64,000 nucleotides of DNA from Candidatus Iainarchaeum sp. (GTDB taxonomy: Archaea; Iainarchaeota; Iainarchaeia; Iainarchaeales; DTGL01): the NCBI GenBank assembly GCA_026413945.1, contig JAOAJX010000003.1, positions 62,001 through 126,000 on the forward strand. The letters are read 5' to 3'. Every line of letters starts with the position of its first letter. Position 1 is the stretch's first letter. The notes under the pieces were generated by a model that did not search any database, was not told the origin of the DNA, and was given only the letters and a program-made list of their open reading frames with translations. Shown piece by piece: positions 36,731 to 42,231 of this stretch. A program made the translations under genes and the position numbers.

Positions 36731-37195
36731 ATGGAGCATAAAAAATTGGTGATGGCTTTCGGGACATTTGATTTTTTTCATTATGGGCATCTATACTATT
36801 TGGAAAGGGCAAAGAAGCTAGGCGGTAAGCTGATAGTGGTTGTTTCAAGGGATGAAAACGCTTTTTTATCAAAAGGAAAAAGTACTTTGCACAATGAGAA
36901 AGAGCGCCTTAAAGTTATAAAAGCGCTAAGCTTAGTTGATGATGCGGTTTTAGGGCTAAAAGGCAACACTTTTGGAATTCTGCTGAAATATAAGCCTGAT
37001 ATAATTGCACTTGGCTATGACCAAAGAGTTGACATTAAAGCATTAAAGGCCTTCATTTCAAAAAAAGGCCTCAAAACGAGAATAAAAAGAATTCCTGCCT
37101 ACAAGCCCCATATTCTTAAAAGCTCTAATTTCAAGGCTCTGAAAAAAGAGCTGCAGGAAAATAAACCTTTAGAGTTGGGCAGGGACATACTCTAA
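36731..37195 (+). CDS. ribL: Cytidylyltransferase-family protein, probable archaeal FAD synthase
   Basis: AFGTFDFFHYGHLYYLERAKKLG; ALGYDQR; short archaeal RibL-like length. Confidence 0.8.
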   Translation: MEHKKLVMAFGTFDFFHYGHLYYLERAKKLGGKLIVVVSRDENAFLSKGKSTLHNEKERLKVIKALSLVDDAVLGLKGNTFGILLKYKPDIIALGYDQRVDIKALKAFISKKGLKTRIKRIPAYKPHILKSSNFKALKKELQENKPLELGRDIL

Positions 37196-37260: not shown

Positions 37261-39545
37261 ATGGTGATGTTTATGCGAAAAGATTTAAGGAAATTTTATT
37301 CAAACAGGCTTTTTATTTTTTTTATCGCTGTTCTAATCCCTACTTTGGCTTCAGCTTATTGTACCGGAACTCCAAGGCCTTGTTCATATTGGTCGAATAG
37401 TTTTAACTGCAGGGATGCTGGCTGCACATGGGATTATGATTATTGCACAGGCACGCCAAACAGCTGCTCAACTTATTACAATGAATGGGGTTGCAGAACA
37501 GCCGGTTGCACCTGGTATGGCGCAACTCAGACACCAAAGCCGAGTGGTTGCTATTCTTGGTCGTATCAATGTGAGTCAGCAAACTCTAGCAAATGTTCTT
37601 GCTATGATGCTGTTGAGTGCCAATATATTGGGATTACGACTGCTATACTTTCTGGTATTGCGACAATACAAAGTGCAACAAGCCAACAGGCTGTTATGAA
37701 AACTCTGGAAGCTGCTACACACAAAATGCATCAAAATGCTCCTGCAAGGAAGCAGTAAAGTGCAAATACAACAGCACTTATAATTGTTATTCGTTTGATT
37801 ATTGTGATACCTCAAGATGCCCACCAACCGGATGTGTCGGCGCACACACTAATTGCATAGCACTTAACGAGAGACGTTGTGATTGCAGAGAGGCTGTAAA
37901 TTGCCTTTACAATACTCTACACGATTGCTATACTTTTAAAGATTGCAACAATAGTGTTTGTAAAGAGCTCGATTGTTCTTTTATTTATATATTAAGCCCA
38001 CGCAACGCCTCTGTAAAGTGGAATGAAACTTTATCTGCGCTAGTCATTCTAAGTTGCAATAAGGCTGTAAGTTCTATCACAGTTAATGCGGGTACCAAAA
38101 GCAATACATGTTATAATCCCTCTGGAAGCACGTGTAAAATCGAATATACTGAAACCATTCCACAAAGTAAGAGCATAGGTAAATATTATATTGACATATC
38201 AGGAACAGTTGTAAAAGGAAATGAGTCAAAAAACTATACAGGTCGCATTGAATATAATGTAATAGAACCACATGATTGCAAACTTAGCTATTATTTAAAT
38301 TCTAGTTCCCTAAAACCAGGCGATTATATATCAGGTAATGCTACCTTGACATGCTATAATAAAGTGGATTTAATAGTTATAACTTTTGGCTCATCTAGAA
38401 ATAGTTGTAACGCATCTACATGCAGCATAGATCATCGTGAAAAGATTCCAATAGATAGAGAACCAGGAAATTATACGGTTGCAGTATATGCAACAGCCAC
38501 AGTGGCAGGAATCCCCAAAACATATCATGAAACTATTACTTATTCAGTCAAAGATGCATCATTATGTAGAATCCATTTCAACCCACTTAGCGCTTCAGTG
38601 AAACCAGGAGACATCTTAAAAGTTGATGCTGACGTATCATGTAGTACCGGAATGGATTCTATAAGTGTTAGTCTTGGTACCTCAAAAAGGCAATGTCAAA
38701 ACTTATCTTCATGTAGCGCCACTTACCAACAAAAAATACCTGATAGCATGAGGCCTGGCAAATATGAAATATTAGCAGAAGCAGCTGTTACGAAAGAAGG
38801 CGCATCGAAAAAATACAATGCATCTTTTTCCTATACAGTTGAAGAGCCGCCAAAGCCTTGCAGTATAAGCTTTAACCCATCAACCGCGTCCGTATACAAA
38901 GGTAGCTCATTTAAGGTGACAGCAACCATTGGCTGTGGCGATATTATGGATTCCATTGATATTCAGTTTGGCTCAGCTTCTAACAGGTGTCAGAAATCAG
39001 CTAGCTGTAGTGTCACTTTTGAAATACCCCAATCTTCGACTGCAGGTGTAATATTTGTACATGCATCTGCAAAAGCAACAAAAGGTGGCGTATTAAATAC
39101 TTATAGCAATATTTTCAAATATACTGCTACAGACGAACCTTATTGCTTCATAACATTTAGCCCCTCAACAGCAACAGTTGTTGCTGGAGATATTTTGTAT
39201 GTCAGCGCTATCCTTGAATGTGATACTACTATAGAACGTCTTAGCATTGTTTTTAGTACAGCATCTAACTATTGCAGCAATTCAAAAGGTTGTATGGTAA
39301 GCATAACCATACCAACACGAGGCATAGCACCAGGTGATTATACAATCAATGCGTCAGGAAGTATTGCCTTTAGCGGAAAATCAAAAACATATAGTAGTGC
39401 CTTTAAATATAAAATAACAAAACCAACGACTTCAGCAGGTTCAACAGCGACATCATCAACTTCTGCACAGTCAACTTCAACCACCTTTGAACAATTCATA
39501 GCAGTTATTAGGGAAACAATACGTTTTATTTTCCCATTCGGCTAA
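37261..39545 (+). pseudogene. Cys-rich repeat surface protein gene interrupted by one apparent frame disruption near 37625
   Basis: ORFs 37261-37758 and 37617-39545 are halves of one repeat protein; signal peptide in first, three about 45-aa Cys repeats span the junction, then Ig-like about 85-95 aa repeats. Could be assembly error rather than true pseudogene. Confidence 0.75.
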
Positions 39546-39554
39546 ACCGTGTCC

Positions 39555-40010
39555 TTAAAATTCTTTCTTCAGAAGCACAAGATTTTTGTATTTAGATCCT
39601 TCTTTTGTGCCTTTCTCAAGTAAGCCATATTGCACAAAACCAAGCTTCTCGAAAACCTTTAAGGATACTGCGTTATCATCATTGACTTGGGCTGTTACTA
39701 TTTCGGTTCCTTTTCTAATGTTTTTAAGCGCATGCTTTAAAATATGCTGAGCTATTCCTTTGCCTCTATGCTTTTTCGCAACTATAAGAGAATGCAAGCT
39801 TGCAATGTGCTTATGGGGTCCAATGCCATACTTGACAAGCAGATGTGCAATAACTTTGTCGCCCAATTTTGCCACATACCTTTTTTCATTTTTTGAAAGA
39901 AAGCTGTTTATAACACGCTTTCTGGAGAGTTCAAGACCCCAATGCGGATAAAGCTTTGCTATTCCTGTAGAGTCCTCAATTCTTGCTTCGCTTATCTTTA
40001 TTTCCGGCAC
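39555..40010 (-). CDS. GNAT family N-acetyltransferase
   Basis: SLHSLIVAKKHRGKGIAQHILKHAL acetyl-CoA motif; VSLKVFEKLGFVQYG. Confidence 0.9.
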   Translation of the reverse strand: MPEIKISEARIEDSTGIAKLYPHWGLELSRKRVINSFLSKNEKRYVAKLGDKVIAHLLVKYGIGPHKHIASLHSLIVAKKHRGKGIAQHILKHALKNIRKGTEIVTAQVNDDNAVSLKVFEKLGFVQYGLLEKGTKEGSKYKNLVLLKKEF

Positions 40011-40422
40011 CTTCTTTCAGCCCTTCAATATTTTTTCTCCGCTTTTCCCCCATATGAATTATGAACTCACTGCCAAGGAAATCTCTTCCGACCAATACTG
40101 GAAGCTTCATCCCAAAACGATCAGCTATAGTGAAAAGCGTCTTTTTTCTTTTTCCGCACATTTCAAGGATTCCTTCAGCAACAGGCCTCCTAACATAGCC
40201 TCTTGGTTCAGTCTTGCTCTTTATCCTCAACACCCTTACAATAGGGCCCAAACCAGCTTTTGCAGCAATTTTAAGATCAACGCTCGATCTTTCAGCACCA
40301 GTATCAAGCAAGGCAAGCGTTTCAACCGCCTTTTTTTTGCCTATTATCTTAACATGCTGAACAAGCCCCACAATCTTTTTCTTCTTCTTTTTGTTGCAAG
40401 AAATCCCCCTTTTTTCAGCCAT
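39976..40422 (-). CDS. Retropepsin-like aspartic protease (RimK-associated type)
   Basis: ALLDTGAERSSVD aspartic protease motif; PVLVGRDFLG; family often linked to RimK-type ligases; overlaps GNAT gene by 35 nt. Confidence 0.8.
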   Translation of the reverse strand: MAEKRGISCNKKKKKKIVGLVQHVKIIGKKKAVETLALLDTGAERSSVDLKIAAKAGLGPIVRVLRIKSKTEPRGYVRRPVAEGILEMCGKRKKTLFTIADRFGMKLPVLVGRDFLGSEFIIHMGEKRRKNIEGLKEGAGNKDKRSKN

Positions 40423-40510
40423 AACGAGAATAAGTAAAAATCAAAAACTTTTTAAACAAATGAGGAGAATACATATTCACATACGTTTGCCTTTTTGGCA
40501 TGTGTCTTTT

Positions 40511-41347
40511 ATGAAAAAGCTGATAATGGCTGTTGAAGGTGAACGCAAAAGGTTTGCATTGCTTAGAAACGCATTTGAGCAAAAAGGCTTCTCAGTTAAG
40601 TTACTACCGGTAAGGCGCCTTACACTTTTTGCTGATAGGAATGGCTCCAAAGCAAAGATTTTTGGCAATGGTAAGTTCGATGGGGCAGTTTACCTTGAAA
40701 CACCATTCATGCTCACTCAGTTTGTCGAGCCGCTTCTTGATTACATTGAAACAAAAGGTTTCTATTGCCAAGTGCATAAAGGAGCCTATTATGTTGGAAG
40801 CAATGAGCTGCTTCAAATAAGCTTGCTTAGTAGCTATGGTATAAAAATTCCTTATACAAGGATTTTTGGAAATATTGAGCAAATACGAAAAGCCAAGGAG
40901 AAGTTTAGCTACCCTGTCGTTGTTAAGGTTTACAAGAATGGTGAAAAGATACAAAGCATGATTGCTAAAAACTCTGATGCCTTAGCTTCGCTAACCGAGA
41001 GGATTGAAGGTGACACAGCAGTTGTGAGTGAATTTATAGAAGGTGATATTGAGCATTGTGCCGTTATTGGAGAAGAAGTTTTTGCCCTTAGAAGCACTAC
41101 ATCAGATCCGACAAAAGTACGACTTATGAAAAATGCAGTTAATGTAAAGCTCTCAAAAACTGAAGAAGAAACAGCCATACAAGCTGCCAGCATTTGCGGC
41201 TGTGACATAGCAACGGTAAAAATGTGCCGTGGCTTTGTTACAAGAGTGAAGCCACATGTAAATATGATTCTTTTTACTAAGAAAACAGGGCGTAACCTTT
41301 TTGAAAAAGTGGCAGAGTTGTTTTACAAGAAAAGTGGTGGTGGCTGA
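40511..41347 (+). CDS. RimK-like ATP-grasp protein, possibly degenerate
   Basis: ATP-grasp-like arrangement KFSYPVVVKVYKNGEKIQSMI ... VVSEFIEGDIEHCAVIGEEVFALRS; C-terminal acidic/Asn motif replaced by VTRVKPHVNMI. Confidence 0.75.
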   Translation: MKKLIMAVEGERKRFALLRNAFEQKGFSVKLLPVRRLTLFADRNGSKAKIFGNGKFDGAVYLETPFMLTQFVEPLLDYIETKGFYCQVHKGAYYVGSNELLQISLLSSYGIKIPYTRIFGNIEQIRKAKEKFSYPVVVKVYKNGEKIQSMIAKNSDALASLTERIEGDTAVVSEFIEGDIEHCAVIGEEVFALRSTTSDPTKVRLMKNAVNVKLSKTEEETAIQAASICGCDIATVKMCRGFVTRVKPHVNMILFTKKTGRNLFEKVAELFYKKSGGG

Positions 41348-42231
41348 TGCCAAGCATTGTAATAATTGCTGCAAAGAACTACAATAAGGGAAATAATAAG
41401 CTACTTCTCGAAGAGGCAAAGAAGGCATTTGATAAGGTGCTGTTTGTGCCTATAAATAAATTAACCATCGTGCACAAAAACGGCACCTCAAAATTGTTAT
41501 ACAAGGGGATAAACCTTCTGGATTTTGATGCATGTTATCCGAGGTTTGGATCAACCGATTACTTTATGGGGGAAGCAGTACTAAAGGTGATAGAAAGCTC
41601 TAAAATATACTCTCCGGTTTCACTGAAAGGCTATCAAATATCTAACCATAAATTCTATACAATTCAAGAGATTGCAGAAAGCGGCCTTCCATGTGTGCTT
41701 ACCTCATTGAGTGCTTCGCCGCAAAGCATGGAAAGCATTGTAGAAGAAATGACATTTCCTCTGGTTTTGAAATTAATAAGTGGCTTCGGTGGACGGGGCG
41801 TTATGCTTATCTCAAACAAAAACGAGCTTCAATCTATATTAGATACTGTGCACTTATTCGAAGAATATATAACAGCCCAAAGATTTCTGCCTACCGGCAG
41901 CACAGACATCAGATGTTATGTTTTCGGGGATGATGTCTTGAGCGTTAGACGCACAGGTGCTCCAAATGACTGGCGTGCTAACATTTCGCGCGGTGGCAAA
42001 GCAGAGATAATAGATGGTAATCCAAAAATGGAGGAGTGTGCCATTAAAGTTGCTAAACTCCTTGGCTTTGACATATGTGCAGTTGATTTCATTGAAACAG
42101 ATCTTACCAAAGAGGGTTTTGCTGTGATAGAAGTCAACTTTCAGCCAGGGCCCTTCAGAAAGTTTTTAGGCAACGTAGTGCCAAAGAAGATGATGGAATT
42201 CATAAGGGCAAAGATAGAAAAAAAGAAATAA
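41347..42231 (+). CDS. RimK-family ATP-grasp ligase
   Basis: FPLVLKLISGFGGRGVMLI, STDIRCYVFGDDVLSVRRTG, FAVIEVNFQPGP motifs; start overlaps upstream stop. Confidence 0.88.
   Translation: MPSIVIIAAKNYNKGNNKLLLEEAKKAFDKVLFVPINKLTIVHKNGTSKLLYKGINLLDFDACYPRFGSTDYFMGEAVLKVIESSKIYSPVSLKGYQISNHKFYTIQEIAESGLPCVLTSLSASPQSMESIVEEMTFPLVLKLISGFGGRGVMLISNKNELQSILDTVHLFEEYITAQRFLPTGSTDIRCYVFGDDVLSVRRTGAPNDWRANISRGGKAEIIDGNPKMEECAIKVAKLLGFDICAVDFIETDLTKEGFAVIEVNFQPGPFRKFLGNVVPKKMMEFIRAKIEKKK

Follow-up and report, generated by a model that had tools for sequence, protein, structure and literature searches.

The window, the whole 64,000-nucleotide stretch of DNA analysed here, comes from a Diapherotrites-related host genome of ~0.95 Mb and harbours two divergent gene pairs: a GNAT acetyltransferase and a retropepsin-like peptidase on one strand, and AG1 and AG2 on the other, the only RimK-type proteins retrieved from this genome by a PF08443 search. 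Re-inspection bore out all four ORFs at the coordinates originally predicted (Table 1). The GNAT and retropepsin ORFs share 35 bp, and the end of AG1 and the start of AG2 overlap by a single base (TGATG). We placed the AG1 start at an ATG because the orthologues agree on it, and rejected a TTG-started ORF (40391-41347) as a mechanical ORF call. The region between the two pairs contains an AT-rich motif, AATCAAAAAcTTTTTAAA, that is kept in congeners (AATCAAAAAxTTTTTAAA), and this TATA-like element suggests that the region acts as a divergent promoter.

Table 1. Genes and features of the module, in window positions
Feature	Positions	Strand	Remarks
GNAT acetyltransferase	39555..40010	-	GTG start; PF00583 52 bits; accessory member
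Putative RimB/RloA-like retropepsin (DTGA aspartic peptidase)	39976..40422	-	profile matches, AF2/Foldseek
Divergent intergenic region, 88 bp	40423..40510	.	conserved TATA-like motif; predicted promoter
AG1, predicted catalytically dead RimK paralogue (pseudo-ligase)	40511..41347	+	RimK fold, active-site loss
AG2, predicted catalytically complete RimK-family ligase	41347..42231	+	TIGR00768, invariant catalytic residues

An NTase gene (36731-37195) and PurA were dropped as module members because they are missing in several loci (L047, L049-L052) that retain all four genes. The former, on the plus strand, encodes a cytidylyltransferase-like protein and lies next to the module in many Diapherotrites families. 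Two further plus-strand ORFs, 37261-37758 and 37617-39545, overlap in different frames and have Cys-rich repeats in common; the product of the first has a hydrophobic N-terminal stretch, and they may be fragments of a single secreted repeat protein interrupted by a frameshift, whether real or from the assembly.

The two RimK-type proteins had been predicted as a ligase pair, which missed that they differ: AG2 has a complete active site and AG1 is a conserved dead copy. AG2 scores 149.6 bits against TIGR00768 (RimK family), above the cut-off of 143.4, and 99 bits against PF08443 (AG1, 42 bits), and a profile comparison with RimK structures gives 172 bits. In E. coli RimK numbering (reference row EcRimK, residues 1-281 of the RimK chain), AG2 of the window has the Mg ligands D248, E260 and N262, K100/K141 and the G-loop. 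Across 26 orthologues K102, K142, G149, G151, R189, R210, N212, D247 and N264 are invariant and E262 is nearly so. The RimK catalytic set is retained, with few exceptions (R64 and R216/G217 in some 'y' copies, one E260D), in 28 AG2 sequences and in 22 live copies ('y') of a second DPANN set (see below); these residue calls, like those for AG1 and the dead copies ('x') of the second set, depend on alignments of divergent proteins. AG2 probably adds amino acids to an acceptor. It scores below the curated cut-offs for bacterial RimK (S6-glutamate ligase, PRK10446; 109.6 bits, cut-off 331) and LysX (98, cut-off 276), and far below those for MptN and CofF, and so agrees with the original prediction in being no clear orthologue of any of these enzymes.

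By contrast, AG1 is a predicted pseudo-ligase of the RimK fold whose active site is lost. Its AlphaFold (AF2) model (pLDDT 88.9) superimposes on RimK 7qyr with a TM of 0.86 and its profile matches RimK over the full length (73 bits), and in the window copy the G-loop, R211, D248, E260 and N262 are all gone. In every one of the 28 AG1 sequences something else, in many cases KKxQS, stands in place of the glycine loop, and R211 has disappeared along with its loop (RxN..RGG); D248 has become K in 20 copies, E260 is kept in three, never alongside D248, and N262 in one, such that none has the complete catalytic set. The same active-site parts are lost in the 'x' copies, D248 and E260 occurring together in 0/28 AG1 and 0/19 'x' sequences. 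Other positions are conserved instead: F71, E73, P74, L106, P135 and G187 are invariant in AG1, including a new N-terminal motif, F71-x-E73-P74, and K141 and E178 are retained in 23/28 and 24/28 copies, respectively. With Nei-Gojobori dN/dS values of 0.05-0.20 (Diapherotrites) and 0.03-0.08 (Aenigmatarchaeota), similar to those of the live copies (0.03-0.14), the predicted dead copies are under purifying selection and not decaying.

The peptidase gene encodes a DTG motif whose D40 and G42 are invariant in 18 orthologues. Profile searches retrieved RloA (9g58, E=7e-8), the closest solved structure by this measure, and 2pma (E=1.5e-7), and the best Foldseek matches of the AF2 model were 2pma/RloA, followed by HIV protease. 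With 24.7 bits against a cut-off of 27, the window copy matches PF05618 weakly (relatives reach 31-42 bits), and the RimB equivalog NF052261 was not listed for it; the copy at locus L056 scores 29.6 against the NF052261 cut-off of 200. No signal peptide is apparent by eye. Profiles and model point to a RimB/RloA-like retropepsin.

To our colleagues' earlier suggestion that ligase and peptidase form a conserved unit, the genomes of the phylum lend support, as the neighbourhood is kept in 22 of them and is conserved in the second DPANN set as well. Among 87 genomes searched, AG1 was detected in 34 and AG2 in the same ones. The one exception is G046, in which AG1 reaches the end of its contig and no AG2-level match was found. 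Of the 34 AG1-positive genomes, 22 encode the retropepsin (PROT). So does one further genome, G086, within a set of its own arranged as PROT > live > dead. The peptidase shares a contig with AG1 in 22 genomes, at a few hundred bp in 21 and at ~1.3 kb in the remaining one. Fisher tests on co-occurrence in the 87 genomes, which ignore phylogeny, gave 5e-11 and 3e-10. Most of the named relatives in which we found the retropepsin are Candidatus Diapherotrites; it is absent in families f3, f6, f7, f10 and f13, and since many genomes are draft MAGs, absence of a gene can be contig loss.

In all seven retropepsin-negative loci inspected, AG1 has immediately upstream of it, in several cases abutting or overlapping, a gene for a fusion of a mechanosensitive-channel domain with a C39-like peptidase (MscS-C39), in which CGPAS, GHxxL and DPS motifs are conserved. 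A search of the phylum returned MscS-C39 in exactly 11 genomes. Each of these has AG1 and lacks the retropepsin, and the matches adjoin AG1. Exactly one of the two peptidases thus accompanies AG1 in 33/34 genomes, both in none and neither in one (G057). The predicted peptidase is swapped for an unrelated C39 type in the sister clade, and as the C39 genomes form one clade in the AG1 tree (G065 left out), the swap may correspond to one or a few evolutionary events.

The dead/live pair extends to other DPANN archaea. In the named genomes scanned and the phylum of G090 (34 genomes), we found the retropepsin in 28 genomes. In many members of the second set the genes run co-directionally as PROT > dead > live; others keep the dead > live tandem but separate it from the retropepsin, or have PROT > dead while the live copy lies at another site; in some Aenigmatarchaeota genomes no dead copy was identified near the live one. 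The tree separates AG1, AG2, 'x' and 'y' into four groups, and AU tests reject neither one nor two origins of the dead copy. At four Aenigmatarchaeota loci (L099, L100, L103, L104) the retropepsin lies next to M29-type aminopeptidase genes, away from the RimK pair, and two archaeal-histone-like ORFs lie directly downstream of a live ligase in G104 (L096 3723-4201, +). PF05618 also has matches in the control genomes of M. jannaschii, H. volcanii and M. acetivorans, and on four haloarchaeal plasmids RimK and a RimB-type peptidase are one protein with the ligase residues intact. Two Bipolaricaulota matches (L060, L061) were rejected as kin of the system, because the match is weak and these genomes have no RimK.

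The GNAT belongs to a specific subfamily with invariant P22, W24, R44, H56 and H68, found in 16 of the 87 genomes, where it adjoins the retropepsin in 15 and lies at a contig end in one. Although the capping role originally assigned to it is possible, its presence in only 15 of the 22 retropepsin-positive AG1 genomes makes it an accessory member of the module. The window GNAT scores 15.9 bits against NAGGN synthetase (TIGR03103, cut-off 569), a fused GNAT-ATP-grasp protein; here the two are separate genes.

We favour, and consider fairly probable, a two-subunit version of the RimK/RimB ligation-and-trimming system. AG2 would be the live ATP-dependent ligase, converting an acceptor carboxylate into an acyl phosphate to which an amino acid is then added, most likely glutamate because AG2 is homologous to RimK. 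From the all-or-none co-occurrence of AG1 and AG2 and the adjacency of their genes, which argue for a joint function, we infer a mixed RimK-type oligomer in which AG1, as the dead partner subunit, would determine the target choice of AG2 or regulate it. In the manner of RimB, the retropepsin would trim the added residues and/or stimulate the ligase, a trimming job that in the sister clade may have passed to the membrane MscS-C39 cysteine-peptidase fusion, and the GNAT would act as an accessory modifier. Against this reading stand the PF05618 score of the window retropepsin below the cut-off, the possibly very few events behind the swap, a tree compatible with either a single or a double origin of the dead copy, the live copies with no dead copy nearby in some Aenigmatarchaeota, and the GCS2-, M20- and FGase-type neighbours in the C39 clade, which fit small glutamyl peptides equally.

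These neighbours bear on the main rival to tagging, a small-molecule pathway. Its product, made by AG2 together with AG1, would be a small peptide or cofactor, N-acylated or oligo-glutamylated (compare NAAG, NAGGN or polyglutamylated coenzymes), which the GNAT would cap and the peptidase recycle. We regard this pathway as a real possibility, though not a probable one. Near some C39-clade loci lie genes for a GCS2-like ligase, an M20 deacylase-type peptidase, an M29 aminopeptidase and an N-formylglutamate amidohydrolase, and near the MscS-C39/AG1/AG2 operon (L129-L134) a third, largely intact RimK-like ligase (D248, E260 and N262 kept, R203 replaced by K). An AstE/AspA-type hydrolase adjoins the live ligase at L056 and three of the four haloarchaeal RimK-RimB fusions, the GNAT adjoins a RimK-like ligase in one branch, and the RimK relatives MyfA/MyfB build a coenzyme polyglutamate (PMC8141765). 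Yet the scores lie below the equivalog cut-offs for MptN, CofF, LysX and NAGGN synthetase, and the substrate of characterised retropepsins of this type is either a glutamylated protein or poly-Glu (PMC11957791, PMC12239564). LysW was not found in the host genome, which led us to reject a LysW-type carrier, and no recurrent carrier gene was seen among the loci inspected.

A more specific form of the two-subunit reading, to which we give rather little credence, is an obligate heteromeric RimK ligase with a targeting or regulatory dead twin that would make reversible glutamyl tails or peptides, trimming being tied to osmotic or membrane tension. The coupling to tension is suggested by the fusion of the C39 peptidase to a mechanosensitive-channel domain and by RloA peptidases being required for hypo-osmotic survival in Pseudomonas (PMC12239564). 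It is very improbable that AG1 has some other, non-ligase chemistry or senses a ligand (poly-Glu or a nucleotide) independently of AG2: its conserved K141, E178 and F71-x-E73-P74 would suit such roles, but not the strict pairing of the two genes. Equally hard to credit are two active ligases working in sequence, as in the original write/erase/cap scheme: tandem ligases acting in succession (MyfA/MyfB, PMC8141765) and linked ligases (discussed in PMC4431377) have precedents, but all 28 AG1 sequences, and likewise the 'x' copies, are without glycine loop, R211 region and complete Mg triad, leaving the two-writer reading unsupported.

RimK and RimB have been characterised in bacteria, and bS6 is not known outside bacteria. 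The Pseudomonas RimK/RimB (RimABK) ribosome-modification system likewise combines a complete RimK-type ligase with a cytosolic retropepsin-like partner, whereas here a second, dead RimK copy lies beside the live one, no rimA was seen at the window locus, the C39 swap occurs in a sister clade and the GNAT in one branch. In Pseudomonas RimB binds and stimulates RimK and trims poly-Glu tails, both regulating and opposing RimK, and hybrid RimBK proteins exist (PMC11957791). The RloA/RloB/RloC system of Pseudomonas aeruginosa, tied to osmotic stress, has a retropepsin and an ATP-grasp in one operon, but there the retropepsin, RloA, is a secreted protein, RloB is a membrane protein of inactive transglutaminase type and no dead/live ATP-grasp pair is described (PMC12239564). 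The coenzyme glutamate ligases MyfA/MyfB and MptN/CofF are RimK-group ATP-grasps that add glutamates, but no peptidase or dead paralogue partner is described for them, while LysX/ArgX, archaeal RimK-like ligases too, differ in using the LysW carrier.

While RimK with RimB and the hybrid RimBK are already known, the conserved dead/live pair with interchangeable peptidases appears to be new. The searchable literature yielded no account of a dead/live RimK pair from archaea; an earlier mention is possible, for example in Iyer et al. 2009, reportedly a survey of such ligases. The pair and its exchangeable peptidase suggest that archaea with minimal genomes run a dedicated write/trim cycle, AG1 would be a natural example of an ATP-grasp pseudoenzyme maintained under selection, and the module offers a small testable system of three or four genes for identifying the tagged target.

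The haloarchaeal fusions likewise join an archaeal RimK ligase to the same kind of peptidase, but with a single live ligase, and the surroundings of the four plasmid loci showed no dead copy. S6, which RimK modifies in E. coli, ends in Glu-Glu. All four fusions (L125-L128) also end in Glu-Glu, which may reflect self-tagging or merely an acidic proteome.
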